A stretch of 28,738 bases of DNA, from the NCBI RefSeq assembly GCF_946885885.1, contig NZ_CAMPHN010000047.1, forward strand, positions 1-28,738. The letters are read 5' to 3'. This document shows positions 8,125-27,582 of this stretch, in pieces. Numbering within the stretch: position 1 is the stretch's first letter; each line of letters opens with the position of its first letter. A program made the translations under genes and the position numbers. The notes beneath the pieces are model-generated. The model saw only the letters and a list, made by a program, of their open reading frames with translations, ran no database searches and was not told the DNA's origin. Source of the DNA: an uncultured Pseudomonas sp. (lineage in GTDB: Bacteria; Pseudomonadota; Gammaproteobacteria; Pseudomonadales; Pseudomonadaceae).

Positions 8125-9057
8125 TCACTCGCTCCAACTCGGCGTATTCAGAAGTTCCATTCCATATGGCGCGGTGCTGTTCAGGCTCGATCGAAGAGCC
8201 TGCAGAAAATAGCGGGCGCTCTGAGTGATGCTGCGATGCGAGGCAGTGAGCGCATACAGGGTGGTGGGAGCTGGCGTATCTTCCGGGCAGGCCAAGGTAA
8301 GGGCGCCGCGGGCCAGTTCGTCACGGCAGGCATGGAGTGGAAGGCATGCCAGGCCTATCCCCGACTTCGCTGCTTCGCGTACCGCCATCAGGTTATCGGC
8401 GCAGAGTGCCGGGCTCTGTAGATCTCGCTGCCAGCCGTCCATTTGCCAGGCCTGTGGCGTCGGGCAGCCGCTGGTCAATAACGCATCGTCGTCAAGTTGC
8501 GCTGTGCTTTTCGGGTTGCCCAGCTGTGCCAGCAGAGCTGCCGTGCCGACGATTACATTGCGTAGCTGCGCCAGAGGGCGCGCGACTATTTCGCCGCTGT
8601 CCAGCGGTGCGCTGCCCAGGCTCAGCGAGAGATCCAGGCGCTGCGCGCGCAGGTCGAGCTGCGCATCCGCCTGCACCAGCGCGTAAGTCACCTGTGGGTA
8701 GGTCTGACGAAAAGCGGACTGCTGCTCCAGTAACCAATCGAAGAGAATTCCAGGCGCCGCCATGCGAATTATTCCGCTCGGCCTGTCAAGCGCCTCCTGG
8801 GCACTGTGGGTTGCCGCTTCTGCCGCAGCCATCATATTCAACGCGTGTCGATAGATCTGTTCGCCGATCGTGGTCAAAGAGAACTGGCGGCTGGTTCGAT
8901 TGAGCAGTTGCACGCCTAGCCTTTGTTCCAGCTGCATAATTCGTCGGCTAAGGCTGGATTTAGCTGTGCCGATTTTGTCCGCCGCGGCGGAGAAGCTGCC
9001 GGCTTCGACCACGCAGATGAACCAGTACAAGTCGCTCAACAAATTGGCCTGGGTCAT
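8125..9057 (-). CDS. LysR-family transcriptional regulator (CrgA/DhaR-like group)
   Basis: A 310-residue LysR regulator distinct from the one at 1480-2421. The helix-turn-helix (about residues 5-60) reads LYWFICVVEAGSFSAAADKIG followed by SSLSRRIMQLEQRLGVQLLNRTSR, characteristic of the AaeR/CrgA-type group; the effector domain follows (about 90-300). The start ATG 9057 is preceded by AGGG with 8-base spacing; a 42-residue upstream extension is low complexity and rejected. It ends convergently 35 bp from gcdG. No gene lies divergently next to it, only a repeat element, so its target is not evident here. Confidence 0.9.
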   Translation of the reverse strand: MTQANLLSDLYWFICVVEAGSFSAAADKIGTAKSSLSRRIMQLEQRLGVQLLNRTSRQFSLTTIGEQIYRHALNMMAAAEAATHSAQEALDRPSGIIRMAAPGILFDWLLEQQSAFRQTYPQVTYALVQADAQLDLRAQRLDLSLSLGSAPLDSGEIVARPLAQLRNVIVGTAALLAQLGNPKSTAQLDDDALLTSGCPTPQAWQMDGWQRDLQSPALCADNLMAVREAAKSGIGLACLPLHACRDELARGALTLACPEDTPAPTTLYALTASHRSITQSARYFLQALRSSLNSTAPYGMELLNTPSWSE

Positions 9058-9189
9058 CGTTACTGCCCTGTTCGATGGAGTGCTGTGTGGCTGTGGATGC
9101 AACGGGGATGGTTTTTTGTCGTTGTGAATAGCATTGGGGCAGCACTGGCCGTGGTCTGGACGCCTGCCAAGTGATCCCTCCATTTAGCT

Positions 9190-9538: not shown

Positions 9539-9934
9539 GGGGGTCGCTTGGTCCTGAGGCGTGACTGTGGCGTTTATCTGCATCAGGGACCATCGGGCTG
9601 AACTGGTTTTCCGGTAGGGGGATGGCGCTGGTCTTGTAGGGCGTTTCTTAGTTGGCGGCTGGGTTGGCGGCTACAAATTTCGACCGATGGCGGGGGCGGT
9701 TTTAGCGAGGGACCATGCGGGAATGCGAAGCCGTCGTTGTGCATGCCATAGAAAACCTATACGACCTTTCCTGACGACGGAGATAAGTTTTTGCCGTTGT
9801 AAACTTTGCGCTATCTTACGCCCCGTTTCGTTTTGGACTTTTGCTCGAGCGGATCGGGGCTTTGCTCGGCCGGATGCGTGCGCGATATCTCGGTGTGGTC
9901 GGCGGTAGCATCAGCAAATGGAGGCGGTACGGGC
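9539..9934. other. Intergenic leader region of the two-component operon
   Basis: About 400 bases without a convincing gene. A direct repeat AGGGACCAT appears at about 9586 and 9709. A possible promoter is TTGCCG (9791-9796) with TATCTT (9812-9817), spacing 15, which would give a leader of ~110 bases before the response regulator. The open frame running through the last 130 bases is the in-frame extension of the response regulator and is not thought to be translated. Confidence 0.35.
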
Positions 9935-10717
9935 ATGGTGGATGAGGGCAGGGCGGCCGATCGTATGCCGCACATTCTGGTTATCGATGACTCCCCCGAG
10001 GACATCCGCTCGCTGTTGCTCATCCTGCGTGCGCAACCTTGGCGGCTGTCCGTCGCCAGCGATCCGCGGCAGGGCTATCAGCGCGCCTTGGCGTTGCTCC
10101 CGGATCTGATCGTGCTGGATGTGCGCATGCCGGGCATGGATGGGTTCACCCTCTGCCGGCTGCTGCGCGAAGCACCGGCGACCCAGCGCACACCGGTGAT
10201 TTTCCTGTCCTCCGCCAGCGCTGTCGAAGAACGTATCGAGGGCCTGAGCCTGGGTGGCGTCGACTACGTGCTCAAACCCTTCGCGGCCGAAGAAGTGCTC
10301 GCGCGGATTCGCATCCACCTGCAATTGGCTTGGCGCGACGAAGTGGTAGCCCCGGTCGAGCCGACGCCATCCATGCAGGATCCCGATCAGGTCATGCTGC
10401 GTGCGGCGATGCGTTTCATTGCGCAGAACCTCGGCGAGCTGCCGTCCCTGGCGGAGATCGCGCGCAAGGTCGGTACCCATGACAAGCGCTTGTCGGGCAT
10501 CTTCCGCGAGCACCTGGGCACCACGGTATTCGCCTACGCGCGCGAGGCGCGCTTGCGCAAGGGGCGGGAGTTGCTGGCGGACAGCCGGCTGAGCGTGCAG
10601 GACATCGCCGAGCTGGTCGGTTTCAACAATGCCTGCAATTTCACCACGGCGTTTCGTGAGCGCCAGGGTTTGACCCCTACCCAGTATCGCCAGCAGGCGC
10701 AGGGCGACCCGGCTTGA
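9935..10717 (+). CDS. Response regulator with REC and AraC-type DNA-binding domains
   Basis: A 260-residue response regulator. REC domain residues 12-130: acidic pair Asp18-Asp19, phosphoacceptor Asp62 (VLDVRMPGMDG), conserved Ser/Thr position 92-93 and Lys114 (YVLKPF). C-terminal AraC/XylS double helix-turn-helix, about 160-258 (LPSLAEIARKVGTHDKRLSG, then DIAELVGFNNACNFTTAFRE with LTPTQYR). The start ATG 9935 has GGAGG at 9920-9924; longer upstream frames add only unrelated sequence. Its stop overlaps the start of the sensor kinase gene by one base (TGATG), so the two are co-translated. It probably regulates this operon, including the TonB receptor. Confidence 0.93.
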   Translation: MVDEGRAADRMPHILVIDDSPEDIRSLLLILRAQPWRLSVASDPRQGYQRALALLPDLIVLDVRMPGMDGFTLCRLLREAPATQRTPVIFLSSASAVEERIEGLSLGGVDYVLKPFAAEEVLARIRIHLQLAWRDEVVAPVEPTPSMQDPDQVMLRAAMRFIAQNLGELPSLAEIARKVGTHDKRLSGIFREHLGTTVFAYAREARLRKGRELLADSRLSVQDIAELVGFNNACNFTTAFRERQGLTPTQYRQQAQGDPA

Positions 10718-13134
10718 TGGTGCGGCGTTGCGTGCTGTGGCTGATTTGCCTGTCGCTACTATGCGGCGTGGCCTTTGCCGAGGCCGCGTCGACAGAAGCG
10801 ATCTGCCAGACGCCACGGTTCGACCTGGCCGCCCAAACCCTGTTGCTGGAGGACCCGGGGGCCGCGCTGACGGCCGATCAGGTACTCGCGTTACCCGATA
10901 GCGCATTCATCCCCGCCACTCGGCAAAACCTGACCCGGCAATACAGTCACTCCGCGTTCTGGTTGCGCACGCGATTGTCGAGCGACGCCGGGTGCAAGCG
11001 TTGGCTGACGGTGGGCGATCCGCGTCTTGCCGATATCCAGGTGCACCTGTGGCAAGGCCGCGACCGGCAGACGATGCGCGCCGGCAGCGCTTACCCCGTG
11101 GCGCAGTGGCCGGTACGGGCACGGCAGCCGACCTTTCCGCTGGAGCCGTTGGCGGGGCAGGAGCTGACCCTGCTGATTCGGGTGGTCAGCAGCTCGATGA
11201 TCATCATCAAGCCGCAGCTCTGGTCGGAGCTGGGGCTGCTCGATCATCGACAAGGCGGTTCCCTGGTCGATGGCATGACGCTGGGCATCACCCTGCTGAT
11301 GGTGCCGTTCAGCTTCGTCATCGGCTGGCTTCTGCGTTCGCGGCTGCTGGTCGTCCACGCGTTGTCAGTGTCCGTTTACGCGCTACTGGTCAGCGTGGTG
11401 AATGGTTACCTGGTTCACTTTCCTTCGTTACTGCCCTGGTCGCACGAGCTGTTCTGGCTGCTGGGCCTGGTGCAGTACTGTCTGTTTTTCGCCTACATTC
11501 GCGTTCTGCTGCAGGTGCGCCAACTGCCGCCGCGTTGGGGTCAGGCCTACAACCTGTTCATACTCGCCGTGTTCGCCTGCTACCTGTGGATGCTGGTCGA
11601 CAACGTGCAGGGGCGGGCCATGAAAGATGAACTCGTCCTGTTCGCCTACCTGCTGATACCCGCCACTTTTCTCGCGGGCTGGCGGCGTCGGTTCGACTAC
11701 AGCTGGTTGGTATACCTGGTCTGCGGTCTGTTTATGCTGGCCGGTCTGATGCGCCTGCTGGCCGTGGCGGGGGTGCCCTGGCAGACCGCGGACGACAAGC
11801 TGAGCCTGGCCTCGACCCTGCCCGGCCTGCTGTTGCTGGCCTGCACGCTGGTGATGGAGGTCGGGCGCATCCGCTCCCGGGAACGGCGTGCGCTGGCCGA
11901 TCTCGATAACCAGCAGAAGGCCGAACACGAGCGTCTGGAAAGCACGGTGGCCACGCGCACCCGACAGCTGCGCGAGTCCCTGCGGGCACGCAGCTTGCTG
12001 ATGGCGCGGATCAGCCACGACCTGCGCTCGCCGCTGGTGAGCATCGTCGACTACGCGCGCCTGTTGTCGTCCGGGGCGGTACAGGATTACTCCCGCAAGA
12101 TCGAACGCAATGCCCGCCAGCAACTGGAGCTGATCGACGAGTTGCTGGAGTTCTCGCGCAGCGAGCTGCAGCAACTCGAGATCATCCTCGCGCCCGGTTA
12201 CCTGTATGGGTTTCTGCGCGAGATAGAAGAAGAGGCTGGCTTCCTCGCGGCGCAGCAGAACAACGCATTCGAGTGCCGCCTCGATCCAGGCTTGCCGACG
12301 CTGGTGCAGGCCGATTTCCGACGTTTGCGCCAGGTGCTGATCAACCTGTTGGCGAATGCCGCCAAGTTCACCCGCGATGGCCAGGTGCTGTTCGAGGTGC
12401 ACTGTCTGGCCAGCGACGTCGCCTCGGCGCGCCTGCGTTTCAGCGTCAGCGACACCGGTATCGGGATTCCCGCCGACGAGCGCAAGCAGCTGTTGCAACC
12501 GTTCTGGCGTGGACGTGAAGCGGAGCGTTATTCCGGTAGTGGCCTGGGGCTGTCCATCGTCAGTGGACTGTTGGAGCAGATGGATAGCAGGCTGTCGCTG
12601 GACGAGTCGCAGTCGCGTGGCGCCCGCTTCAGCTTCGAGGTGGAATTCGCCCGCGCGCGGGAGGAAGACCTCGACATCTCGTTCGCGCAGAGCCAGGACA
12701 TGCAGGTCAGCGGTGTCGGCAGACAGATCCTGCTGGTCGACGATGTCGAGCAGAATCGCGAGTGGCTGAGCGATCTCCTCGGCGGCTACGGCTTCGACGT
12801 TACTGCGGCGAGCGATGCCGGGCAGGCCCTGGAGGCTCTGCGCAATGAGGTCTACGACCTGCTGATCAGCGATCAGGCGATGCCGGGGATGGACGGCTGG
12901 GCGCTGCTCGCCGTCGTGCGCGAGCGCTGGCCCGCCCTGCCCGTGCTGCTGTATTCGTCCGCGCCTGCGTTGCGGCCGGCCGTCTATCCGGCCGATCTGA
13001 ATTTCGACGCCGTTCTGCTCAAGCCGTCCGATGCCGCCGAACTGCTCGCGACCGTCGAGCGCTTGGCTCCCGAATCCACGCGTCCGGCGGCTGCCGGTTC
13101 GCTCTCAGAGGTTTGCCGTGTCCTGGAAGACTGA
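10717..13134 (+). CDS. 7TMR-DISM hybrid sensor histidine kinase/response regulator
   Basis: An 805-residue inner-membrane hybrid kinase. Order: Sec signal peptide (about 1-22, ending AFAEA); periplasmic 7TMR-DISM extracellular type 2 domain (about 30-170); seven predicted transmembrane helices (about 180-385); a short coiled coil; HisKA with phosphorylatable His434 (ARISHDLRSPL); HATPase_c with N box Asn547 (NLLANAAKF), DTGIGIP from Asp579 and GSGLGLSIV; C-terminal REC with Asp719 (LLISDQAMPGMDGW). DISMED2 domains are often proposed to bind carbohydrate-like ligands. No Hpt domain is visible. The ATG overlaps the preceding stop, and the 3' end overlaps the TonB receptor gene by 17 bases. Confidence 0.94.
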   Translation: MVRRCVLWLICLSLLCGVAFAEAASTEAICQTPRFDLAAQTLLLEDPGAALTADQVLALPDSAFIPATRQNLTRQYSHSAFWLRTRLSSDAGCKRWLTVGDPRLADIQVHLWQGRDRQTMRAGSAYPVAQWPVRARQPTFPLEPLAGQELTLLIRVVSSSMIIIKPQLWSELGLLDHRQGGSLVDGMTLGITLLMVPFSFVIGWLLRSRLLVVHALSVSVYALLVSVVNGYLVHFPSLLPWSHELFWLLGLVQYCLFFAYIRVLLQVRQLPPRWGQAYNLFILAVFACYLWMLVDNVQGRAMKDELVLFAYLLIPATFLAGWRRRFDYSWLVYLVCGLFMLAGLMRLLAVAGVPWQTADDKLSLASTLPGLLLLACTLVMEVGRIRSRERRALADLDNQQKAEHERLESTVATRTRQLRESLRARSLLMARISHDLRSPLVSIVDYARLLSSGAVQDYSRKIERNARQQLELIDELLEFSRSELQQLEIILAPGYLYGFLREIEEEAGFLAAQQNNAFECRLDPGLPTLVQADFRRLRQVLINLLANAAKFTRDGQVLFEVHCLASDVASARLRFSVSDTGIGIPADERKQLLQPFWRGREAERYSGSGLGLSIVSGLLEQMDSRLSLDESQSRGARFSFEVEFARAREEDLDISFAQSQDMQVSGVGRQILLVDDVEQNREWLSDLLGGYGFDVTAASDAGQALEALRNEVYDLLISDQAMPGMDGWALLAVVRERWPALPVLLYSSAPALRPAVYPADLNFDAVLLKPSDAAELLATVERLAPESTRPAAAGSLSEVCRVLED

Positions 13135-15496
13135 ACCCGGGGTGGTGCGCTATGGCTACCCGCTCTGCCTTTTGTCCCTGTCCTGCCTGAGCGGGGCGTA
13201 TGCCGAAGAATATTCTGCCGCCGACCAGGCGCGATCCCGTCCCGACGCGGCCCTGGTGCTCGATGACATGACGGTCAGCGCGCGGCGCCGCGAGGAGCCC
13301 GCGCAGACGGTGCCGATTGCCATGAACGTGCTCGCTGGCGAGCAGTTGAACGATGCCGGGATCTACCGTACCGAGGAGCTGCAGCAGCGAGTGCCGAGCC
13401 TGCTGGTGTCGGTGCCCAGCCCGCGCTATACCAGCTACGGCATCCGTGGGCTCGGCTCGAGTTCCTACAACGACGGTATCGACGGCAGCGTCGGGGTGTT
13501 CCTCGATGGGGTTTACCTGGGGCGCCAGGGCATGTCGCTCGTCGATCTGGTCGATGTCGAGCGCGTCGAGGTGTTGCGTGGGCCCCAGGGCACCTTGTAC
13601 GGCAAGAACACCACGGCCGGCGCGATCAACGTCAGCAGCCGCGCGCCGACCTTCGCGCCGGAGGGCGGTGGCGAGGTATCGGTCGGCGAAAAGGGGCTGC
13701 GTCAGTATCGCGGTACGCTTTCAGGCCCGCTGATCGACGGCGTGCTGGCCGGACGTCTGACCGGCTATGACGTCGAGCGCGACGGCCTGATCGACAACCG
13801 CTACGACGGTAGCGAGCTGCGCGACCAGAACCGGCAGGGCCTGCGCGGCCAATTGCTGTGGACGCCGAGCGATACCTTCAGCGCCCGCCTGATCGGCGAG
13901 TACGCCTGGCAGGACGAGCAGAGCAACGTATTCACCGCCAGCCACTATAGCCAGGCGACCCTCGAGCGCTCCGCCTTCGTCGGCTACCGCCAGTTGCCGA
14001 TAGACCCCTATGCCCGCCGCGTGCAGCAGGATAAGCCGAACGCCGTGAAGACGCTGCAGACCGGCGCCACGCTGGAGCTGAACTGGCTGCTGGACAGCGG
14101 CGCCACCCTGACCAGCATCAGCGGTTATCGCGACTGGACCTATGACGCCAGCCAGGATGGCGACGGCATGGCGCTGTCCATCGTCGACGACGCGACGGTA
14201 CGTCTCGATCAGCACCAGTTCAGCCAGGAGCTGCGCCTGGCTGATTCGCCCAACGAACACCTCGACTACGTGGTGGGCCTCTACTACCTGCGCCAGCATC
14301 TGAACCGGGCAGTGGGCGTACGCTTCGGCGAGGACGCGGCGGCTTACTTCCTGGGCGATAGAGCGGAAATCCACCAGTTCGGCATTACCCCCGCGATGAT
14401 TCCAGCCTCGTTGCTCGAAGGTGGGCAGCAGCGCTTCGATGGCGAGCAGCGCAGCGACAGCCGCGCGGCGTTCGGTCAGGTCACCTGGCATGCCAGCGAG
14501 CGCCTGGCGATCACCCCGGGGCTGCGTTACACCCGCGAACGCAAGCAGGGCTGGCTGTCGCGCAGCGTCTCGGGGTTGGCGCCGCTCGGGCTGGACCTGG
14601 TCTCGCAGCTGGGTGGCAACTTGCTGCGCAGCACCGCGCTCGGTGGCGAGTATTACCGGCGCGACGCGATCGAGGAGAGCAATCTCTCCGGGCAACTGGC
14701 GCTCAGCTACCGGTTCCGCGACGACCTGCTCGGCTATGCCAGTTGGTCGCGCGGCTACAAGGCAGGCGGGATCAACCTCGACGTGGTCGGCCCGAATGTC
14801 GAGCCGACCTTCGAGGCGGAGCGGGTCAGCTCGCTCGAGGTCGGCCTCAAGAGTGGTTTCTGGAACGGTCGGGGTATGCTCGATCTGGCCCTGTACCAGG
14901 CCGATGTCGAGGACTACCAGGCGTTGACCAACCGTCCGCCGGTCAATGAGTTCGCCCCGCCGATCCGCGACAACCTGATCAATGTCGGCAAGGTACGCCT
15001 GCGCGGCATCGAGCTGGATGCCCTATTGCGTGCCAGCGAGCGGGTCGACCTGCGCCTGGGTATCGCCTGGAGCGATGCGCGTTACCGCGACTTCGCCAAT
15101 GCCCCCTGTTCGCCGGCCAGCGCGCAGTGGTCGTGCGACCTGGGCGGTAAGCGCCTGTTCAATGCGCCGGAATGGAGCGCCAGCGCCGGGGTCGACTATC
15201 GCTACCCGCTGGAGCACGCTCTGGAGCTGTTCAGCGGCCTCGACTACCAGTTCCGTAGCGGCTACTACGGCACGCTCGAAGGCGGGGCCGGCAGCTATCA
15301 ACCGTCCTATGGGCTGACCAACCTGCGTTTCGGCCTGCGCCGTGGCGACAGGCGCTGGGAAGCCGAGCTGTGGGCACGCAATCTGTTCGACGAGGACTAC
15401 ATCACCGCGGTCTATGCCCGCCTTGGTGCCGGTGACTATGGGGTATTGAGCGGTGACCCGCGCAGCGTCGGCATGACGCTGCGCACGCGCTGGTAG
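13118..15496 (+). CDS. TonB-dependent outer-membrane receptor
   Basis: A 792-residue outer-membrane transporter. The start is GTG 13118, chosen because AGAGG sits 6 bases upstream and the product then has a good signal peptide (LCLLSLSCLSGAYA, cleavage before EEYS); the frame is open further upstream inside the kinase gene. A TonB-box-like DDMTVSA lies near residue 50, followed by the plug domain (about 55-170; VERVEVLRGPQGTLYGKNTTAGAINV) and a 22-strand-type barrel ending in SVGMTLRTRW with a terminal aromatic. There is no N-terminal STN signalling domain, so regulation would run through the linked two-component system rather than a FecIR-type sigma/anti-sigma route. The substrate is not recognisable; no inner-membrane transporter is present. 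Confidence 0.94.
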   Translation: MSWKTEPGVVRYGYPLCLLSLSCLSGAYAEEYSAADQARSRPDAALVLDDMTVSARRREEPAQTVPIAMNVLAGEQLNDAGIYRTEELQQRVPSLLVSVPSPRYTSYGIRGLGSSSYNDGIDGSVGVFLDGVYLGRQGMSLVDLVDVERVEVLRGPQGTLYGKNTTAGAINVSSRAPTFAPEGGGEVSVGEKGLRQYRGTLSGPLIDGVLAGRLTGYDVERDGLIDNRYDGSELRDQNRQGLRGQLLWTPSDTFSARLIGEYAWQDEQSNVFTASHYSQATLERSAFVGYRQLPIDPYARRVQQDKPNAVKTLQTGATLELNWLLDSGATLTSISGYRDWTYDASQDGDGMALSIVDDATVRLDQHQFSQELRLADSPNEHLDYVVGLYYLRQHLNRAVGVRFGEDAAAYFLGDRAEIHQFGITPAMIPASLLEGGQQRFDGEQRSDSRAAFGQVTWHASERLAITPGLRYTRERKQGWLSRSVSGLAPLGLDLVSQLGGNLLRSTALGGEYYRRDAIEESNLSGQLALSYRFRDDLLGYASWSRGYKAGGINLDVVGPNVEPTFEAERVSSLEVGLKSGFWNGRGMLDLALYQADVEDYQALTNRPPVNEFAPPIRDNLINVGKVRLRGIELDALLRASERVDLRLGIAWSDARYRDFANAPCSPASAQWSCDLGGKRLFNAPEWSASAGVDYRYPLEHALELFSGLDYQFRSGYYGTLEGGAGSYQPSYGLTNLRFGLRRGDRRWEAELWARNLFDEDYITAVYARLGAGDYGVLSGDPRSVGMTLRTRW

Positions 15497-15587
15497 TCCC
15501 TTGGGTCTGTTGCGCCAACCATCCTATTTCGGCTGAGTGCCGGGCCGCGTGGAAGGGGCCAGACGGCCTTTCCCTGGGCGGCACTCC

Positions 15588-15660: not shown

Positions 15661-16055
15661 CCTGGTCACTCATCTGAATTCAGCGCATGCACGCCTGTGT
15701 TTCCCGCTAATTCTGTCCGCTACGGCAAAGGTCGCTTTGAAAGCGATATCGATTGCGAGCGGCTGGGCGCTAAGCGCTCTGGGAGAAAGCAGAGGCATTT
15801 TCCTGGTGGCATTCTGCTTTCTTTGCGCGGACGACCGTTTATCTCAGTGCAACGCTGGTTTCCATTTTGCCATCTTGTTGCCACCTCCTCTTGTCATCAC
15901 TCTGCCGCCCTTTCTTTGACGTCGGTGAGCTTGTCAGCCCGCAGGGCGCTGTAAGTCGGCAACGAGAGAGTGGTATGCCACGGGCCTTGGCCCGCTGGGG
16001 ATGCGATCCTCGTTGGGGGTGAAGACAGCGTAGCCAGGGGTATGCGACAGGCGCA

Positions 16056-16069
16056 CTGCAATATTGCAG
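16056..16069. promoter_or_regulatory. Perfect palindrome at the giant gene's ribosome binding site
   Basis: CTGCAATATTGCAG is a perfect 14 bp palindrome whose last two bases overlap the Shine-Dalgarno AGGGGAG (16068-16074). It could be an operator or an RNA element; which is unknown. Confidence 0.35.
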
Positions 16070-16081
16070 GGGAGCGTCGTG

Positions 16082-19000
16082 GTGCCAGGTTCTGTTCGCA
16101 GGAAGCGCCTGTTACAGGTGTTGGTGGGGAGCTTATGGGTGGGCCTGAGTTTGCTGCCGCTTGCGGCCAGCGCGGACCTTGGCGTGAGTAAGACCCGGGC
16201 GTCGGGCTTCACCGATCCCAAGTTCGTTGGCGATACCGATGGCTTCCTGATTCACCTGACCAACAGCTTCGCCAGCGGCGATATCACCGATGTCAGCTTC
16301 ACCGACACCATGCCGGCGGGCTTTCAGGTCGCAGGCGCTGGAGTGGTATCCGCCGAATGTCGCGACGGCAGCGGCGTGCTGACCGGCTCGCTGAGCAATG
16401 GCGATTTTCCCGGCACCCTCGATGCGGCATTGGGCAGCAACACCATCAGCCTCACTGGCGGGGTGATCCCGGCGGTGAACGGCGGCTCCGAGGCCGGTTT
16501 CTGCGATATCGTCGTGCAGGTGACCAGCCTCACCGGCAACGGCACCAACCAGATTCCCACAGGCACCGTAACCGGCGAGCACGCCGGCAGCCCGGTGAGC
16601 AACGCCGATCCGGCCCAGCAGTCGCTGAACTTCAACACGCTGCCCGCACCGAGCATCGGCAAGAGTTTCTCGCCCAGCACCATCGTCAAGGCCGATCAGG
16701 CGACGCGCCTGACCATCACCATTACCAACAACGCCTCGCAGCCGCTGCCGCTCAATGGCATAGGCGATACCCCCGCGTTCGCTATCCGTGACCGCCTCGG
16801 CGACCACGGTCTGCGGGTCGCCTCGGTGACCAGCGCCAACCCGGCGGGGCCGGACGCGCAGATCAACTGCGGCGTCAATCCACCGAGCTTCGCGCCAGCA
16901 GCGGGCGATACCGAGATCCTTGCCGTCGGCGGCGTCATCGCCGCCAACAGCAGCTGTAGCCTCAGCGTAATGGTGGTGGCGGACGGTTCCGACAGTGCCT
17001 ATTCGACTACGGTCAACAACGTCATCGACCGCACCACCGATTTCGCCAACCAGCGCGGTCTGGTACCGCCGAGCAACGCCTCGGCCAACCTGACGGTCAC
17101 CGCGCCATTGCGCGTGGCCAAGGTGTTCATCCCCGCCACGGTCGCCAAGGGCCAGGAAGCGACGCTGCGCATCACCCTGACCAACGCCAGCCCGTTGAAC
17201 GCTATGGTTCTGGGCAGTTTCAGCGATGCCATCGACGCTGGTGCGGGTCTGCTGGAAATCACCAGTGCACCGACCGCCAACTGCAGTGCGGGCTCCAGTC
17301 TCGTCGGCCTGGGCGGCGTCGGTTCGTCGACCCTGCAAATGACCGGCGGCACCCTGGCAGCCGGCGGCAACTGCGTGATCACCGTGCCCTACACCGCCGA
17401 CCTGGCGGTGGCCGGCGTGCCGCAGTCCTTCACCAATACCATCGCCCCAGGCGATGTGACGGTGAGCAGCCCGAGCGATGTGGTCAGCCAGGGCGTGAGT
17501 GCCTCGGTCAACGTGGTCGACCAGTTCCTGGTGGAAAAGACCAGTCGCCCCTCGGTCGTCACCCCCGGTAACCCGGTGCTGTTCACCGTCACTACGCGCA
17601 ACTACTCGGCCGCCGCGCAGAGCGGGGTGGCGCTGACCGACAACCTGCCCAACGGCATGCTGCTGCTAAACCTGCCGGAAAAGCCGGCGCCAGTACTCAG
17701 TGGCACGGGTTGTACCGCGTTGGCGCTCGGCGGCAGCGCAAGCGACCCGGTATTCACCTTCGACATGCCGGCGGGCAGCGCCGGCAACCCGGCGAACTGC
17801 ACCGTGACGTTCTGGGCCATGGTCCCGGCCGACGCGCCCAATGGCGCCATCGTCAACCAGATCGACGCCGGTGACGTCTGCACCGCCGGCAACATCTGCA
17901 ACCACACCTCGACCAATGCGCAGTTCAGCGTCAGCAGCAGTGTGCTGACCGTGGAAAAGAGCTTCGACGCCGGCTCCAAGCCCGAGGGAACCGCGGCGAC
18001 CATGACCATCGAGCTGGTCAACCTGTCCGCGCAGCCGCTCACCAACGTCAGCCTCACCGACAACCTGCCGACGGGCAGCAACGGCACGCCGATGCTCGTC
18101 GCCTTGCCGAACAACGCTTCCACCACCTGTGGCGGCACCATCACCGCGGTACCGGGCAGCAACCAAGTGATTCTCAGCGGCGCCACGGTGCCCGCGCGGG
18201 CCAATGGTGGCCTCGACGCAGCCGGCCGCTGCCGCTTGCGCGTGAATGTCAGCGGTGCCGCCGGTCAGTACGACAACCGTGTATCGGCCAATGCCACCCA
18301 GACCTTCGCCGATGGCACGAGCGATACCCTGACCAGCCCGGAAGTGGTGGCGACCATCAACTTCCTCTCGGCCCTGGGCGGCAGCAAGTCGTTCACTCCC
18401 AACACCATTCAGTCTGGCGGCATGTCCACGGTCACCCTGAGCCTGAGCAATAGTCAGGCGGGAGTGCTCAACGATGTGGCGATCACCGACAACCTGCCGG
18501 CCGGGATGACGGTCGCCAATCCGGCCAATGCCTACTCGACCTGCGCCGGCTCGCCGGTGGTTTCCGCAGCTCCCGGCGCCGCGGTGGTCAGCCTGACCGG
18601 CGCGCAGATCGCCGGCAACAGCACCTGCGAACTGCTCTTCGACGTCACCGCCAGCGGTGGCGGCGACTGGGTCAACAGCATCGCTCCCGGCCAGCTCACC
18701 GCCGCCGGTGGCGTGCAGAACGTCGCCGCATTCGGCGCGACCCTGCAAAACGCCAGCGGCGGCGCCGTTACCGTCAGCGTCAACCACGCCACCGCTAGCG
18801 TGGCGGCGCCGGGCGCTGTGACCCAGTTGACCCTGACCCTGTTCAACAGTGGCAGCCTGGACCTGACCAATCTCGACCTGAGCAACTATTTCACCGATAC
18901 CGGTCTGGTCGGCGGCACGCCGACCGGCGAGCGCATCGCCAGCGTGGCCAACGCCATCACCACCTGTACCGGGGGCGTGGTCGGCGCCAGCCCGAACGCC

Positions 19001-22000
19001 ACCTCGTTCAGCCTCAGCGATGCCAGCCTAGCGGTTGGCGAAACCTGTACCGTGACCGTCGACGTCACCATGGCGATCACCGGTACCGTGACCGACACAA
19101 TTCCGGTTGGCGCGATCACCACCGACCAGGGTGTGAGCAACACCCAGCCGGCCTCGAGCAGCCTGTTAACCAGCACCGGCCTGGGCGTGACCAAGCAGTT
19201 CACCCCTAACGTGGTTGCACCCAACGAGCGCTCGCGTCTGCGTATCACCTTCTACAACCCGACCTCCCAACCGATCAGCGACTTGACGCTGACCGACACC
19301 TACCCGGCGGGGTTGACCAGCGCCAGCCCGGCCAACGCCTTGACCACCTGCCAGGGCAGTGTCAGCAGCGATGCCGGCCAGGTGACGATCAGCGGCGGCA
19401 ACATCGCCGCGGGCAGCGGCAGCGCACCAGCCAGCTGCTATGTGGAAATCGACGTGCTGTCGAACACCCAGGGCGACTACCTCAACACCATCCCGGCCAA
19501 CAGTATCGTCGCCACGGCGGAGGGGACGCCGATCAGTAACACCGGACCGACCAGCGACACCCTGCGGGTCAAGGCGCCCATCGTCGTGCACAAGGCCATC
19601 GCCACGCGCACCCTGGATGCCGGCGACCCGGTCGGCTTCACCACCGGCACCGCCACCGGCACCGCCGGGACCGCTCTTACCCTGAGCATCCGTCTGGACA
19701 ACCCGAACAGCTCGCCGCTCACCGGCGTGGCCTACCTCGACAACCTGCCCACCGGTCTGGTCGTGGCCCAGGTGCCGGCGATCAGCAACAGCTGTGGCGG
19801 CAGCGTCAGCGCCACGCCGTCCGGCACCTCCGTGCGTCTGGCCGGCGGCAACCTGGCGGGCAACGGCAACTGTACGGTGAGTGTGGCCGTGCTGAGCAAC
19901 ATCGCTGGCACCTACACCAACACCATCGCCGCCGGCGACGTAAGCAGCTTCGAAGGCGTGAGCAACACCGAGCAGACCCGCGCGCGCCTGGTGATTTCCA
20001 GCCCGCCCACCCTGAGCAAGCAGTTCGCCCCGGCGGTCATCGCGCAGAACGGCATCTCGACGCTGACCATTTTCGTCAACAACCCGAATGCCTCGGCCAT
20101 GACCCTGACTGCGGCGCTGACCGACAACCTGCCGGACTCCCCTGGACAGGTCAGGGTCGCACCGACGCCGAACATCGGCGGCACCTGCCCGTCGGCTAAC
20201 ATCACCGCCACGGCCGGCGCCACCCTGGTGCGTCTGGCCAGTGGCACCGTGGTTCCGGCGGGGGGCTGCACCATCGAGGTGGATGTCACCGCCGATACCG
20301 CCGGCGAGCATACCAACCAGATCCCGGCAGGCGCGCTGCAGACCGACTTCGGCAACAACCCGGAGCCGGCCTACGCCACGCTGAATGTCAGCACGCTCGG
20401 CTTCATCTCCGGACGTGTGTACCTGGACAACGATCAGAGCGGCACCTACCAGGCGGGCACCGACAGCCCGTTGAGCGGCGTCGCCATCGAGCTGCGCAGC
20501 GGCGCGACCTGCGCCAGCGGTACGCCGGTCAGCGGCATCAACGGCCTGCTCAACCCGTTCAGTACCGATAGTGCGGGCAACTACCTGTTCGCCGGGCTGC
20601 CGGCCGGCACCTATTCGGTGTGCCAGGCGACGCAGCCGTCCGGCACGCTCAATGCGCCACCGGTGGCCGGTAGCATTACCCCGGCCAACGGCAGCAGCGG
20701 CACGCCCGGTACCGGCGGCAACGCCACCGCCACCAGCAGCCAGATCGAGGGCATCGTCCTCAATGACGACGGCGCTGGCGGTGAAACCAGCGGTTCGCAA
20801 CGCAACGATTTCCCTGAGGTGGCGCCGGCCAGCATCAGCGGCGCGGTGTTCATCGACCAGAACAACGACGGCCTCCGCCAGGGCGGCGACACCGGCTTGT
20901 CCGGTGTGCCCATCACCCTCAGCGGCACCGACTGGCAGGGCCAGCCGGTGAGTGCGACCACCACCACCGACAGCAGCGGCCAGTACCGCTTCAGCGGTCT
21001 GCAGCCCGGTACCTACACGGTGACCGAGCCGACCCAGCCGAGCGGCACCACCAATGGCAAGACCGTCGCCGGCAACAGCAGCAGCGGTGTGCCGACCGTG
21101 ACCGCGCCGGCGACCGTGCCCAGCGCGATCGGCGGCGTCACGCTGACACCGGGCTATGTGTCCGAGGGCAATGACTTCGCCGAGATCGTCAATGGCCGCA
21201 GCATCCATGGCCAGGTCTTCCATGACCGCGACACCGACAGCGCACCAGGTACCGGCGACAGCGGCCTGGGCGGTGAGACGGTGGTGCTCAGCGGCGTGGA
21301 CATCAACGGCAACCCGGTGAACCTGACGACTGTCACTGCCAGCGACGGCACCTTCAGTTTCGTCGGTCTGCCGGCGGGCACCTATGAACTGCTCCAGCCC
21401 AATCAGCCGAGCGGCTTGATCAATGGCTCGACGACCGCGGGCAGCGCCGGCGGTGTGGTCACCGAGGAGCCGAGCCGGATCAGCGCCATCGACCTGACTA
21501 CCAATACGCTTTCGGTGGATAACTGGTTCGCCGAAGTCACCATACCCAGCCTGTCCGGTACGGTGTGGTTCGATATCAACCATGACCGCGTACTCGATCC
21601 GGGCGAAACGCGCCTGCCCGGCTGGACCGTGGAACTGCTGCGCAACGGCGTGGAGGTGGCCACCACCACTTCCGATGCCGATGGCGCCTATGCTTTCGCC
21701 AACCTGACCCCGGGCAGCGGTTACGAAGTGCGCTTCCGTCACCCGGAAACCAACACGCTGTTCGGTCGCCCGGTGCCCAACGAGCAGGGCATCGCCTACA
21801 CGCCGGGCAGTGCCGGTTCGGGCAACCCGGCGGGTGCCGACAACCGCGACGGCACCTTGGCCGGTATCACCATTACCGCGGGCCGCAACGTCGTCGAGCA
21901 GAGTTTGCCGATCGACCCGGCCGGCGTGGTTTATGACGCCATCAGCCGGCAGCCGGTGCGTGGCGCCGTGGTCAGCATCAGCGGGCCTGCCGGCTTCGAC

Positions 22001-23377
22001 GCGGCGCAGGTGCTGGGCGGTTCGTTGCAGCAGACCACCGGTGCCGATGGTTTTTATCAGTTCCTGCTGTTGTCGACCGCGCCGGCCGGCACCTACACCC
22101 TCAGCGTGACCGTGCCCGCGGGCTACGTGCAGGGGCCGTCGGCGCTGATCCCAGCGTGCGACAACAGCCTGACCGTCACTGCGATTCCCGATCCGGCACT
22201 GGTGCAGAACAGCGCCCAGGCGCCGGCGGATGCCGTGACCCTGCATGACGCCGCCACCTGTCCGGTCAGTTCGGTCGGTCTCGGCGCGAGCAGCAACACC
22301 ACCCAGTACTACTTCAGCTTCGTGCTGGGCGCCACTTCGGCCGATGTGGTCAACAACCACATCCCGATCGACCCGATCCTCGGCGGCGCCATCGTCATGA
22401 CCAAGAACACGCCGAAGGTCAACGTGACCCGCGGCGAGCTGGTGCCCTACGTACTGACCGCGCGCAACACCCTGTCCAGTTCGCTGGCCGATATCGCCAT
22501 CGACGACCAGATGCCGCCGGGCTTCAAGTACATCAAGAACTCCGCGCAGATCGACGGCGTACCGGTGGAACCGCAGGTCGAAGGGCGGCGCTTGCGCTGG
22601 CCGAACCGCAGCCTGACCGGTGGCCAGGTGCTGACCATCAAGCTGTTGCTGGTGGTGGGCTCGGGCGTCGGTTTCAACGAATACGTCAACCAGACTTGGG
22701 CGCTGAACATGATCGCCAATGCGCGCGTGTCCAACGTCGCCACCGCCAGCGTGCGGGTGGTCGCCGACCCGACCTTCGACTGCTCGGACCTGATCGGCAA
22801 GGTCTTCGACGACCAGAACCGCAACGGCTATCAGGACGAAGGCGAGCCCGGCATCCCCGGCGTGCGCCTGGCCACGCCGAGGGGCTGGCTGGTGACCACC
22901 GACGAACACGGTCGCTACCACATCGCCTGCGCCGACGTGCCCAGCGAGATGCGTGGCAGCAACTTCATCCTCAAGGTCGACGAGCGCACCTTGCCGAGCG
23001 GCTACCGCATCGTCACCGAGAACCCGCGCGTGGTGCGCATGACCCAGGGTCGCCTGGTCAAGGCCAACTTCGGCGCCAGCATCCACCGCGTGGTGCGGCT
23101 GGACCTGAGCAGCGAGGCCTTCGACGCGGGCAACACCCTGACCGCGCAGTACCAGGCACGCCTCGACGAGGTACTGCAACTGCTGTACGCCGAACCGTCG
23201 ATCCTGCGTATCGCCTACCGCATGCCGGTGGACGGCGAGGTGAGCGACGCGCGTGAACGTGTCGACCATGTCAAGGACTGGATCAAGGAGCACTGGGAGC
23301 CCCACGACTGCTGTTACGACCTGCAACTGGAGGAAGAAATCGTACCGGCGACCGATAGCGTGGAGGTGATCCGATGA
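16082..23377 (+). CDS. Giant secreted DUF11/SdrD B-like repeat protein (putative surface fibre or adhesin)
   Basis: A 2431-residue exported protein; function not known. The start is GTG 16082, 7 bases after AGGGGAG, giving a classical signal peptide ([26 protein letters not shown]). Residues ~30-1437 hold about ten DUF11-type Ig-like repeats of 125-155 residues with recurring (K)xFxPxxV, LTDNLPxG and a cysteine pair. SdrD B/Cna-B-like domains with DxNxDG-type possible calcium loops begin near residues 1438, 1582, 1705 and 1821, followed by a more diverged one near 1946. A further DUF11 domain lies near 2098-2237 ([16 protein letters not shown]), another SdrD-like domain at 2238-2334 ([20 protein letters not shown]), and a C-terminal segment resembling an OmpA fold (2335-2431). 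There is no LPXTG and no type I secretion repeat. The stop overlaps the next gene (ATGA), linking it to the OmpA/barrel protein. Alternative starts are TTG 16064 and GTG 16079. Confidence 0.9.
23362..23371 (+). promoter_or_regulatory. Near-complete Shine-Dalgarno of the OmpA/barrel gene
   Basis: GGAGGTGATC is a ten-base match to the 16S anti-Shine-Dalgarno, with GGAGG seven bases from ATG 23374. It is embedded in the end of the upstream giant gene, whose TGA overlaps the ATG. This predicts very efficient coupled translation. Confidence 0.8.
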
Positions 23378-26300
23378 GCATGCGAAATCTGTTGGTGTGC
23401 GGCATCGCTGCACTGACGTTGAACCCGTTGGCCGTCGCCGTGTCGATCGCCGCCGAACAATGTGAAGTAGGAAAAGGCTGCGGCCTGCAAGGGCCGCGTG
23501 GGGCGATGGAGGACGAGTCGCTGTTGCAGCGCCGGCCCTTCACTCCGGGTGGCCTGCCGGCGTTGCCGGCCAACGCCGAGCGTGAACTGCCGCGCGAAAA
23601 GCTGATTCTCTGGCAGCTCGAGGGTGCCCTGGGCGAGCGTGAACAGCTGGTCGAGGTGGGCGAGGAGCAGATCAGCTCTGTGGTGCTGCGCGATGGCCTG
23701 CCGGTGGTGCGCTTCGCCTCCGGCCGTTCGGCGGTGCCCGAGCGCGACAGCGATGTCCTGGAAAAACTCATGAGCCGTCTGGCCGGCAAGCGCAATCTGC
23801 GCCTGCGCCTGATCGGCCATACCGATCCGCAGCGCCTGTCACCGCGTACTCAGGCCATCTATAGCGACAACCAGGGCCTGGGCTTGCAGCGGGCCAAGGA
23901 GGTCGGCGAGGTATTCCGCCAGCGCCTGAACCTCAAAGCCGAGCAGATCCAGCTCGACAGCCGCGGGCCCAGCGAGCCGCTGATGCAGGGCGACAGCCCG
24001 CAGGCCTGGGCGCTGAACCGTCGGGTGGAAGTGGAAATCTGGTATGACGAGTCCGTCGTCAGCACGCCGGCCAAGCCGCAGACCTGCGCGCCGGGCAGCG
24101 TGGCCGGGGAGAACGTCACGCCGTTCCGCATCAGCGTCGATGGCCAGCCGCAAGGTAGTGACGGCGTTGCCGGCAGCGCCGATACCCAGCGTTGCGTCGA
24201 CGTCGCCCTGGCCCACGACCTGTTGCAGGTGCGCTTCGATAACCTGTCGGCGCAGCCGCGTCTGAACTTGGTGTCTGGCGCGCGCGTGGCACGCATCGGC
24301 GAGCCGCAGACCTTCAGCGGCTACAGCAATTACCTGCATTGGATCAAACGCGCCGAGGTGCGCATCCTCGGCAAGAAGCGTTTGTTCGGCGAACCGCAGG
24401 TGTTGGAAACCATCGCTCTCGATTCGCAGCTCAACGGTAGCTGGACGCCCGCGGCCGGCACCCCCGAGCGCGTCTATTACCAACTGCGCGTGTATGACGA
24501 GCAGGGCCGTTACGACGAAACCAGCGTACAGCTGCTCAATGTCGCCCGTGGCGAGCTGGCCAAGGAAGCGGATGAAGAGATCGCCGCCGATCTGCTCGCC
24601 GGCTACGGCGGCAACCGTCTGCAACGTCATACCATTCCGGTGGCAGGCGGCACGGTGACGATCAACGGCAAGCAGGTGAAAGACGGTCAGCACGTGTTCG
24701 TCATGGGCCGGCCGGTGCCGGTGGACGGCAGCGGCACCTTCGCCAGCGCGCAGATCATCCCGCGCGGTCTGCACACCGTGGAGGTGGCGGTACTCGACGA
24801 CCAGGGCAAGGGACGCATCTACCGCCGCGACCTGCGCCTGCCGCAGAACGACTGGTTCACCGTGGCCATCGCCGACTTCACCGTCGGCCAGCAGGACACC
24901 AGCGGACCGGCGCGCCTGGTCACCCAGGAAGACCGCTACTACGACGACAAGTTGTACGCCGACGGACGCCTGGCCTTCTATACCAAGGGCAAGGTGGACG
25001 ACAAATACACCATCACCGGTAGCGTCGACACCGGCGAAGGGCCGGCCGACAGTCTGTTCAGCAACTTCAACGACAAGGACCCGCGCGAGTTCCTGCGGCG
25101 CATGAGCTCCGACTCGGACAAGGGCTGGGCGACCTTCGGCGACGACTCGACCCTGGTCGAGGACGCACCGACCCGCGGCAAGTTCTACGTCAAGGTCGAG
25201 GACGAGAAGTCTCATGCCATGTGGGGCAACTTCCGCGAGCAGATCCGCGAGACCGAGCTGACCCAGATCGACCGCAGCCTCTACGGCGCCCAGGTGCGCT
25301 ACCGCGACGACGCCTTCACCGCGTTCGGCGAACGCCGTCTGCAGGTCGAGGGTTTCGCCGCCGAGCCGGGCACCGCCTCGGCCCGCGAGGATTTCCGCGG
25401 CACCGGTGGTTCGCTGTACTACCTGCGTCATCAGGACATCACCGAAGGCAGCGAGCGGGTGCGCATCGAGGTGCGCGACAAGGATTCCGGCCTGGTGCTG
25501 CACAGCCAGGACCTGGTCGCCGGCATCGACTACGAGGTCAACGCGATGCAAGGCCGGGTGATCCTCACCCAGCCGCTGTCGGCCACTGCCGACGGCAGCA
25601 CGCTGATCCGCTCTGGCGGCAGCCTCTCCGGCAACCCGGCGTTCCTCGTCGTCGGCTACGAATACTCGCCGGGGCTGGAACAGCTCGACGACCTGGCCTA
25701 CGGTGGCCGCGCGGCCTACTGGGTCAACGACAAGGTACGGGTCGGCGTCACCGGCAGCATGCAGGAGCAGACCGGCCGCGAAGACCAGACCCTGGGCGGC
25801 GGCGATCTGTTGCTGCGCCACAGCGAAGGCACCTGGATGAAGCTGGAGTCGGCGCAGAGCCAAGGCGACAGCCTCGACCAGCGCTTCTCCTACGACGGCG
25901 GTTTCGGCTTCGGCCAGGAAGTCGCCGGCACCGACTCGCGTGCCCGCGCCAACCGCATCGAGACCGCCTTCGACCTCAAGGACGTGGTCGACGACGCCGA
26001 GGGTCGCGGTACTTTCTATTACGAAAGCCGCGACGCCGGCTTCTCCGCGCCGGGGCGCCTGTCCGAACTGGCCAGCGACCAGGTCGGCGGTAGCTACACC
26101 GCACCCCTGGGCGAGAAGACCGAAGTGACGCTGAAGGCCGACCAGACCGAGGAGGACGGTGGCCGTTCGCGCCGCGCCGCCGAGGGTATCGTCGCCTATG
26201 ACCTGAGCGACGCCTGGCGCCTGTCCGCCGGCCTGCGCAACGACCGCCAGACCTATGGCAGCGCCTACCGCAACCTCTACACCGGTACCTATGCCGGTGC

Positions 26301-27582
26301 CGACGACGGCAACTACGACGAAGGCGAGCGCAACGATGTGCTGGTCCAGGCGCTCTACCACGCCGAAGAAGATTGGTCGGTGTACGGCTTCGGCCAGGGC
26401 ACCGTCAGCCGCGACGGCGGTCGCCAGGCCAACAACCGCCTGGGCGTCGGCGGCGATTACCGCCTCAACGAGCGCACCTCGCTGAACGGCGAGCTGTCCG
26501 GCGGCAACCTCGGGGTGGGCGCCAAGGCCGGTATCGGCTACGACGCCTCCGACCGCACCAACGTCTACCTCAACTACCAGCTGGACAGCGACCGCAGCGA
26601 CGACGGTTTTGCCAGCCGCAGCGGCCTGGGCGGCAGCGGCCGCACCGGGCAGTTCGTCTCCGGCGCCCGTTCGCGCTGGAGCGACAGCACCAGCGTCTAC
26701 GCCGAACAGCGTTTGCAGCATGGCGATCAGGCCGGCCTGATCCAGGGTTACGGCCTGGACTTCGCCCCGGATGACCACTGGAGCTACGGCGTCACCACCG
26801 AGTTCGGCACCTTCAACGAAGAGACCGATTACGCCCTGAAGCGCCGCGCCATTGGCGGCAAGGTCGGCTACAGCAACGGCGACCTGCGCTACGCCAGCCG
26901 TCTGGAATACCGCGAGGACAGCAGCGCCGTGCAGGACCTGAGTGTGTGGTTGATGCGCAACAACATCAGCTACAAGGTCAATCCGGACTGGCGCTTCATC
27001 GGCAAGCTGGATTTCTCGGTGGGCGACTCCGATCGTGGCGATTACTTCAACGGCGATTTCGTCGAGGCCTCGCTGGGCTATGCCTACCGCCCGGTGTTCA
27101 ACGACAAGCTCAACCTGCTGACCAAGTACACCTACCTGGAGGACCTGCCGCCGCCGGACCAGGTGTCCACGGCCACCGGCAGCACGGTCGACTACGCCCA
27201 GCGCAGCCACGTCTTCGCCATCGACGGCATCTACGACCTCAACGAGCGCTGGAGCGTCGGCGGCAAGTACGCCTATCGCCTCAGCGAGCTGCGCATGAGC
27301 CGCGACAGCTCGGCCGACTGGTTCGACAGCCGCGGTCAGCTGATTGCCGCTCGCGTGGATTGGCATGTGGTGAAGAAGTGGGACCTGATGGCCGAAATCC
27401 GCCGGCGTGACGAATTCGCCGCCAAGGACAGCCGTACCGGCGTGCTCGTCGGCGTCTATCGCCACTTCGGCAACCACTTCAAGGCCGGCGTCGGCTACAA
27501 CTTCAGCGACTTCAGCGATGACCTGACCGACCTGTCGTACCGCAGCCAGGGCTGGTTCTTCAACGCCGTCGGCAAGTACTGA
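23374..27582 (+). CDS. OmpA-domain outer-membrane beta-barrel protein (1402 residues), partner of the giant repeat protein
   Basis: An outer-membrane protein with a signal peptide (about 1-27, ending VAVSIAA). An OmpA/MotB peptidoglycan-binding domain lies near the N-terminus (about 105-220): Asp151 in IGHTD and Arg173 in LGLQRAKEV are in the expected diaminopimelate-binding positions, and NRRVEVEIW closes it. Next come Ig-like or linker domains (about 225-510), then a very long amphipathic beta-strand region from about 520 to the C-terminus, ending NAVGKY with the terminal aromatic typical of BAM substrates. A 35-40 kDa OmpA carries its OmpA domain after an 8-strand barrel; here the order is reversed and the barrel is several times larger. 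It overlaps the upstream gene by 4 bases. Function unknown; probably anchors or exports the giant protein. Confidence 0.9.
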   Translation: MSMRNLLVCGIAALTLNPLAVAVSIAAEQCEVGKGCGLQGPRGAMEDESLLQRRPFTPGGLPALPANAERELPREKLILWQLEGALGEREQLVEVGEEQISSVVLRDGLPVVRFASGRSAVPERDSDVLEKLMSRLAGKRNLRLRLIGHTDPQRLSPRTQAIYSDNQGLGLQRAKEVGEVFRQRLNLKAEQIQLDSRGPSEPLMQGDSPQAWALNRRVEVEIWYDESVVSTPAKPQTCAPGSVAGENVTPFRISVDGQPQGSDGVAGSADTQRCVDVALAHDLLQVRFDNLSAQPRLNLVSGARVARIGEPQTFSGYSNYLHWIKRAEVRILGKKRLFGEPQVLETIALDSQLNGSWTPAAGTPERVYYQLRVYDEQGRYDETSVQLLNVARGELAKEADEEIAADLLAGYGGNRLQRHTIPVAGGTVTINGKQVKDGQHVFVMGRPVPVDGSGTFASAQIIPRGLHTVEVAVLDDQGKGRIYRRDLRLPQNDWFTVAIADFTVGQQDTSGPARLVTQEDRYYDDKLYADGRLAFYTKGKVDDKYTITGSVDTGEGPADSLFSNFNDKDPREFLRRMSSDSDKGWATFGDDSTLVEDAPTRGKFYVKVEDEKSHAMWGNFREQIRETELTQIDRSLYGAQVRYRDDAFTAFGERRLQVEGFAAEPGTASAREDFRGTGGSLYYLRHQDITEGSERVRIEVRDKDSGLVLHSQDLVAGIDYEVNAMQGRVILTQPLSATADGSTLIRSGGSLSGNPAFLVVGYEYSPGLEQLDDLAYGGRAAYWVNDKVRVGVTGSMQEQTGREDQTLGGGDLLLRHSEGTWMKLESAQSQGDSLDQRFSYDGGFGFGQEVAGTDSRARANRIETAFDLKDVVDDAEGRGTFYYESRDAGFSAPGRLSELASDQVGGSYTAPLGEKTEVTLKADQTEEDGGRSRRAAEGIVAYDLSDAWRLSAGLRNDRQTYGSAYRNLYTGTYAGADDGNYDEGERNDVLVQALYHAEEDWSVYGFGQGTVSRDGGRQANNRLGVGGDYRLNERTSLNGELSGGNLGVGAKAGIGYDASDRTNVYLNYQLDSDRSDDGFASRSGLGGSGRTGQFVSGARSRWSDSTSVYAEQRLQHGDQAGLIQGYGLDFAPDDHWSYGVTTEFGTFNEETDYALKRRAIGGKVGYSNGDLRYASRLEYREDSSAVQDLSVWLMRNNISYKVNPDWRFIGKLDFSVGDSDRGDYFNGDFVEASLGYAYRPVFNDKLNLLTKYTYLEDLPPPDQVSTATGSTVDYAQRSHVFAIDGIYDLNERWSVGGKYAYRLSELRMSRDSSADWFDSRGQLIAARVDWHVVKKWDLMAEIRRRDEFAAKDSRTGVLVGVYRHFGNHFKAGVGYNFSDFSDDLTDLSYRSQGWFFNAVGKY

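Follow-up and report, generated by a model that had tools for sequence, protein, structure and literature searches.

The window analysed here is the whole stretch of 28,738 nucleotides of contig NZ_CAMPHN010000047.1 (assembly GCF_946885885.1), from an uncultured Pseudomonas sp., and our subject is a pair of overlapping genes within it, hereafter A and B, which encode a giant exported repeat protein and a partner with an OmpA domain and an outsized predicted barrel. The two genes and their parts, including regions of immunoglobulin-like (Ig-like) repeats, are as follows:

16082..23377, + strand: gene A, exported giant repeat (putative fibre) protein, 2431 aa (frame, translation, Pfam)
16082..16174, + strand: Sec signal peptide of A, with RRKR, a hydrophobic stretch and ASA (by eye)
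16175..20389, + strand: ten DUF7933 Ig-like repeats of A, residues ~32-1436 (Pfam; borders cut by eye)
20390..21547, + strand: SdrD_B / SpaA / carboxypeptidase-regulatory-like domains of A, residues ~1437-1822 (Pfam)
21548..23374, + strand: conserved C-terminal block of A, 609 aa (alignment, predicted structure, profile comparison)
23362..23371, + strand: ten-base Shine-Dalgarno of gene B, within gene A
23374..27582, + strand: gene B, OmpA-domain protein with giant predicted barrel, 1402 aa (frame, translation, homologues)
23686..24051, + strand: OmpA peptidoglycan-binding-type domain of B, residues ~105-226, with GHTD and NRRV (Pfam, NCBIfam, PDB profiles)
24841..27579, + strand: predicted outer-membrane barrel of B, residues ~490-1402, about 40 strands, C-terminal GKY (structure prediction, Foldseek, OMP_b-brl)

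Gene A lies in an open frame at 16064-23377 and starts at a GTG (16082) that is preceded, seven bases to its 5' side, by AGGGGAG, while gene B runs from an ATG at 23374 to a stop at 27582. The TGA of A and the ATG of B share the four bases ATGA (23374-23377), and the ten-base Shine-Dalgarno of B, GGAGGTGATC (23362-23371), lies inside gene A, such that the frames, coordinates and lengths given in the original prediction, which was made from the sequence alone, are all confirmed. GGAGGT also stands directly 5' of the B ATG in Methylophaga (L010) and the Pseudomonad loci compared (L001, L003-L006, L008), and Nitrincola (L011) has AGAGGT at this position. Both genes are real coding frames, since their length and their domain matches exclude chance, and in our view the long antisense frames (1415 and 1285 aa) only mirror the coding strand. 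A scan of 15450-16200 found no sigma-70-type promoter and two terminator-like sites (0.8 expected), and there was no Rfam match in the window.

The repeat protein A

Protein A is a long exported protein with a stalk of Ig-like repeats, as in fibrillar adhesins. Pfam matches to A comprise DUF7933 (E 4.4e-147, 10 stretches), SdrD_B (2.5e-58, 5 stretches) and DUF11 (5.4e-29, 4 stretches), and since DUF7933 is the strongest of these, and the best DUF11 stretch overlaps one of its repeats, the main repeat of A is DUF7933 and not DUF11; a DUF11 is also present near the end of the protein. The original prediction had described a DUF11/SdrD_B fibre, and while both families are indeed present, the dominant repeat belongs to DUF7933, a published isopeptide-bond family. 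The available part of PMC12617251 lists DUF7933, DUF11 and SdrD_B among the families that form such bonds, and places domains of this kind in surface stalks.

With reference positions taken from the available part of the same source (PMC12617251), a Lys-Asp-Asn triad is complete in 8 of the 10 DUF7933 repeats; repeat 2 retains the Lys and Asp only, and repeat 7 has none of the three, a joint loss that is as expected if Lys, Asp and Asn act as a unit. A cysteine pair is found in all ten repeats, the first Cys of repeat 3 (residue 401) lying two residues off the aligned column. Isopeptide bonds are consequently predicted, from sequence, for the repeats of A. In the conserved C-terminal block, the order of parts is a pilin-like stack, a DUF11, an SdrD_B-type domain and a beta-alpha-beta-alpha-beta tail, and the residues K286, D320 and N381 of its DUF11 are invariant across an alignment of 29 rows, which in our reading would make them the isopeptide triad of this domain. 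The block aligns with the shaft and basal pilins BcpA and EbpB (the VIA rows for the block cover mainly its Ig-like part, not the tail).

Protein B and its predicted barrel

Protein B consists of a signal peptide, an OmpA domain, Ig-like domains and a C-terminal predicted barrel. A Pfam scan with full-length B listed no family, and on a piece of 150 aa (23614-24063) the OmpA family PF00691 scored 38.7 bits against a cut-off of 27.2, with NCBIfam and PDB profiles in agreement. OmpA domains contact peptidoglycan through an Asp (motif xTD) and an Arg (motif NRR). Window B carries both, as GHTD and NRRV, and regular expressions recovered both motifs in 31 of the 37 homologues with one OmpA match; together with the PF00691 match, the motifs uphold the claim that B has an OmpA domain of the peptidoglycan-binding type.

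The C-terminal ~910 residues of B are predicted to form an outsized beta-barrel of about 40 strands, and structure prediction thus agrees with what had been proposed for the second protein. The AlphaFold2 model of this region has a mean predicted local distance difference test score (pLDDT) of 77 and a predicted template modelling score (pTM) of 0.71, and all 50 listed alignments of the model to solved barrels run from model position 250-257 to 1163, a pattern suggestive of first and last strands that meet at a barrel seam. Additionally, the last 426 residues of B reach 28.2 bits with OMP_b-brl (PF13505), just below the cut-off of 28.7. A 2026 review gives, in its available part, single-chain barrels of up to 36 strands (PMC13067283), and if the prediction is true B is a candidate record-size barrel. 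The Foldseek matches of the barrel are of many types, including TonB receptors, LptD, SprA (8gl8_A, E 1.1e-7), FimD, SlpA and the barrels of the S-layer deinoxanthin-binding complex. Kinship with SprA was considered and finds no support beyond a common barrel fold: many other barrels match at similar rank, and SprA is absent among the 60 sequence matches listed.

Relatives and their distribution

A pattern scan with B alone, in a collection of one genome per species (84,980 species), yielded 16 loci: nine in Pseudomonas/Stutzerimonas, one each in Thiopseudomonas, Methylophaga and Nitrincola, and four in metagenome-assembled genomes, one of which is cut off inside B. In a protein collection searched at E 0.001, relatives of B numbered 2749 among 7994 scored candidates and relatives of A 2333 among 7987. 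Where the 120 rows listed for each protein bear names, these are generic ('OmpA family protein', 'flagellar motor protein MotB', 'SdrD B-like domain-containing protein', 'DUF7933 domain-containing protein'), and if our interpretation is true, the more than 2,000 generically named homologues of each half would represent one undescribed system with a defined partner.

Genome counts, which are lower bounds given that the top few candidates per genome were scored, depict the A-B pair as patchy in distribution. At E 1e-20, B matched at least 2 of 99 genomes of the genus (both of them already known loci) and at least 32 of 229 of the class, part of the latter being a more distant group that matches part of B only; at E 1e-50, it matched at least 14 of 299 genomes of the phylum. 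The C-terminal 609 residues of A found matches in 24 of the 229 genomes of the class. What members of the distant group (L038-L045, L047, L058-L061, L092, L093) have in common with B is the stretch that precedes the barrel (residues ~490-830 of B) and in part the OmpA domain, the barrel itself being matched weakly or not at all.

The number of OmpA domains also varies. Three OmpA matches are present in B or the fused chain at L014, L016, L050, L062-L065 and L078, as well as in 70 of the 120 listed B homologues, among which Microbulbifer is a recurrent name; in 66 of these 70, the third OmpA is without NRR. The OmpA profile misses some domains (by eye, they are present in L054, L055 and L056), and labels that record no OmpA are therefore unreliable.

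Linkage, fusion and splitting

Among 59 classified rows, we counted the 42 B genes that possess a barrel signature and readable surroundings. Left out were two B genes cut at their 5' side (L025, L031), two rows (L011, L088) that hold the second fragment of an interrupted B gene, and, from the distant group, 13 rows in which only the pre-barrel part is matched (5 fused, 2 split, 3 with neither, 3 at edges). L011 entered the count by way of its first fragment, and L015, which ends inside B, was not counted. An A signature lies in the frame directly upstream of B in 30 of the 42 and in the same open frame as B in 10, while at L085 the order is swapped, with an A gene of 3505 aa (DUF11, SdrD and tail signatures present) whose first ATG follows the B stop by 45 nucleotides. 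Of the 42 testable B genes, 41 thus have A next to them or fused to them, a figure that should be read with the facts that the A signature is partly generic (DUF11 plus SdrD_B type), that B, by itself or in an alignment with relatives, served to find the loci, so that A was not selected for, and that the loci are phylogenetically non-independent. The claim that the two proteins belong together is therefore sustained, and the possibility that their homologues usually occur apart is refuted. In Stutzerimonas stutzeri A563/77 (L012, 10007-11005), where only the last ~335 residues of B persist as a relic, A was found neither at the locus nor in the genome at 1e-10, which is a case of joint decay of the pair.

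In fused chains, the order is repeats, conserved C-terminal block, OmpA (where detected), Ig-like domains and barrel. A tree of 40 barrels (a quick tree, under one model) requires at least 4 changes between fused and split forms by a fewest-changes count, and a single clade of fused rows is rejected (approximately unbiased test, p-AU 0.00019). At the junction of three fused chains (L013, L04849, L051) we observed by eye a hydrophobic stretch with an AxA end that resembles a signal peptide, and which may be a relic of the signal peptide of B or a cleaved site; with these three removed, the tree still requires 4 changes and the single fused clade is again rejected (p-AU 4.4e-8).

The two halves differ greatly in how their length varies. 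Of the 40 tree rows, 39 have a barrel part of 849-924 aa, and the remaining one (L088) is frameshifted. Across 39 loci, the part of the A frame that precedes the last DUF11 varies about thirty-fold, between 336 and 10085 residues, these lengths being read from stop to stop rather than from start codons and several being cut by contig or stretch ends. One single open frame with a B-type barrel at its end extends over 11,777 residues (G225 contig C2, L048-L049). Because A and B are linked, fused, split and in one case swapped in order, the comparative sequence evidence points to a single machine.

Neighbourhood of the gene pair

Four genes upstream of the pair in the window are conserved neighbours:

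8125..9183, - strand: LysR regulator
9806..10717, + strand: response regulator with AraC-type DNA-binding domain (open reading frame as listed; true start probably later)
10714..13134, + strand: hybrid histidine kinase, with 7TMR-DISM sensor and receiver
13031..15496, + strand: TonB-dependent receptor (conserved in Pseudomonads)

Counterparts of the LysR regulator, response regulator and hybrid kinase lie upstream of the pair in all 7 Pseudomonad genomes whose upstream DNA was examined. Of the ten loci L001-L010, eight (L001-L004, L006-L009) have the TonB receptor upstream. At the Thiopseudomonas locus (L005), weaker kinase and regulator matches are found downstream, and the TonB receptor of the window has no match at 1e-10 in L005 or in L010-L093, most of which are short stretches. 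In the upstream stretch of L100, two kinase matches are adjacent.

Further from the pair, the window holds an ordinary flavohaemoglobin-type protein with globin, flavin adenine dinucleotide- and nicotinamide adenine dinucleotide-binding domains (2510-3733, - strand) and, on the opposite strand to it, an equally ordinary sigma-54 activator with a GAF domain (3860-5416). A repeat, CGCGGCTAAAGCCCCTCC, occurs in four copies with 0-2 mismatches (0.06 expected), all of them outside the gene pair: one 5' of A (15611-15628) and three 3' of B (27654-27671, 27698-27715, 27962-27979). We presume that these copies are akin to the repetitive extragenic palindromic (REP)-type elements of Pseudomonas, which they resemble.

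Proposed mechanism and alternative explanations

The explanation that we favour, with a probability of roughly 55%, is that A and B make an isopeptide-hardened fibre that is displayed and tethered by a giant, wall-fixed barrel. Under this hypothesis, the two proteins would act as one envelope machine, in which B would fold as an outer-membrane barrel of giant size, with an N-terminal OmpA domain that grips peptidoglycan on the periplasmic side. A would be secreted via Sec and would then cross the outer membrane, most likely aided by B, with its conserved C-terminal block keeping it bound to B. The Ig-like domains strung along its N-terminal part, locked by isopeptide and disulfide bonds, would reach outwards as a stiff fibre, roughly 60-80 nm long here if about 17 domains contribute about 4 nm each, and would serve in adhesion or cell-cell contact.

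Several features accord with this explanation. The widely varying length of A, beside a near-constant barrel, fits a fibre part that is not confined by the periplasm, and the triads and cysteine pairs of the repeats, with the invariant Lys-Asp-Asn of the membrane-proximal DUF11, fit a load-bearing stalk. Moreover, the combination of an isopeptide-type stalk with a peptidoglycan-binding domain argues for a fibre that bears load at the surface and is carried by a barrel fixed to the wall. In classical autotransporter topology, the C-terminal end of the passenger descends through the pore. The position of OmpA between fibre and barrel in single chains would be compatible with export of an autotransporter-like kind, since a periplasmic OmpA domain can sit between a strand that descends through the pore and the first strand of the barrel.

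Other observations weigh against it. At two loci (L086, L087), three consecutive genes encode a giant A, a barrel in which no OmpA was detected and an additional protein that has two weak matches to OmpA, and the wall tether therefore need not be within B. Some A parts are short, with 336 (L056) and 405 (L080) residues before the last DUF11. The tail of A is OmpA-like only in the order of its secondary structure (beta-alpha-beta-alpha-beta, in a predicted model); its hhalign comparison with the OmpA of B was the best of seven and above five column-shuffled controls, but at a probability of 2.5% and E 0.019 it is not significant, suggesting at best a degenerate OmpA-like fold. No adhesion domain was recognised in A by Pfam, and its first 236 residues match DUF7933 and DUF11 only; the first repeats could nonetheless be a candidate binding part. 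Finally, locked domains would have to cross the outer membrane before folding, or via a very wide pore. A bolder proposal, which we offer tentatively, is a new outer-membrane display pathway, in which a self-anchoring barrel of ~40 strands would export Ig domains already folded and locked by isopeptide and disulfide bonds and hold the fibre at its pore, while OmpA clamps the wall; the repeated splitting and fusion of passenger and pore would recall type V secretion, although the barrel is unrelated.

The main rival to the displayed fibre, which we nevertheless think unlikely, is that A never reaches the surface and serves as a periplasmic or envelope-spanning scaffold, tether or spacer, with B in the outer membrane and bound to peptidoglycan. 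The short versions of A (336-405 residues before the last DUF11) would fit within the periplasm, and with OmpA, where detected, placed between fibre and barrel in fused homologues, the simplest topology keeps the pre-barrel part periplasmic. Such a scaffold is, however, difficult to reconcile with A parts of thousands of residues (up to 10085), or with isopeptide-type domains, which the available part of PMC12617251 locates in surface stalks.

We regard as slightly less credible still a contact or exchange adhesin resembling myxobacterial TraA/TraB, in which B would cluster A at contacts for recognition or outer-membrane exchange. The plan is common to both systems, an exported surface protein and a barrel-and-OmpA partner in one operon (PMC6626042, available part). 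Yet the TraB model NF033763 is matched by the OmpA part of B only, so the domain order differs, and no TraA-named family occurs among the NCBIfam matches of A.

The conserved neighbours raise the further alternative of nutrient capture, in which A would be a substrate-catching brush and B a large outer-membrane channel, working together with the TonB receptor and the two-component system encoded upstream. The recurrence of the LysR, regulator and kinase genes in 7 of 7 upstream stretches, and of the receptor in 8 of 10 loci, is in keeping with this. We consider it improbable, however, given that the receptor is unmatched in L005 and L010-L093 (mostly short stretches), and that Pfam matched no catalytic or ligand-binding family in A. 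That A is an S-layer-like coat fixed by B seems very improbable: A is a large exported Ig-repeat protein, and Foldseek lists SlpA and barrels of the S-layer deinoxanthin-binding complex, but many other types of barrel match as well (TonB receptors, LptD, SprA, FimD), and the length of A differs widely among relatives, unlike what we would expect of a lattice protein.

If the displayed, wall-fixed fibre is the true explanation, it would account for the display of very long isopeptide-hardened fibres without known export signals in some Gram-negatives, and the existence of fused and split forms beside a clean two-gene operon makes the system directly testable.

Comparison with known systems

The original prediction held that the layout matched no secretion pathway that could be named. 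This stands in so far as no Autotransporter beta-domain (PF03797), POTRA or TPS (two-partner secretion; haemagglutination activity) domain was matched in A or B, at full length or in pieces; it falls short in that the partner arrangement has a parallel in TraA/TraB, and that single-chain relatives exist. Judged by their sequences, A and B lack the tested defining features of type Va, type Vb and TraAB systems.

Autotransporters and two-partner secretion systems (type Va/Vb) resemble the A-B pair in that passenger and barrel are joined in a single chain in some species and separate in others. They differ in that the window has two genes, the one-chain form characteristic of type Va occurring in 10 of 42 relatives. 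Type V autotransporter barrels have 12-16 strands, whereas the barrel of the A-B pair is predicted to have about 40. SprA, the type IX translocon (Foldseek 8gl8_A), is a single-chain giant barrel, as is predicted for B.

TraB is a barrel and OmpA protein required for the function of the adhesin TraA, according to the available part of PMC6626042, and the two are encoded, like A and B, in a two-gene operon. By sequence, only OmpA is common to both systems, and it lies at the other end of the chain: B scores 15.2 bits with NF033763, against a cut-off of 700, with residues 112-236 aligned to profile positions 394-510 of 522. Moreover, DUF7933/SdrD_B stalks are a feature of A, and fused single-chain forms exist for the A-B pair. 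Fibrillar adhesins with CLIPPER (DUF11) stalks provide the second parallel, for example Acinetobacter silvestris B9T28_05395, described in the available part of PMC12617251 as having an OmpA-like anchor. They too combine a long isopeptide-type Ig stalk with an OmpA-like anchoring domain in Gram-negatives, whereas the A-B pair has a giant barrel, separate or fused, and its A has no recognised adhesion domain and a tail of its own that is at best degenerate OmpA-like.

No description of the A-B pair was found in the literature searched. Consequently, we consider the pair to be real, recurrent and, as far as our searches show, undescribed, and provisionally best called a barrel-anchored type of fibrillar adhesin; in our best reading, it is closest in plan to TraA/TraB and to the OmpA-anchored fibrillar adhesins.

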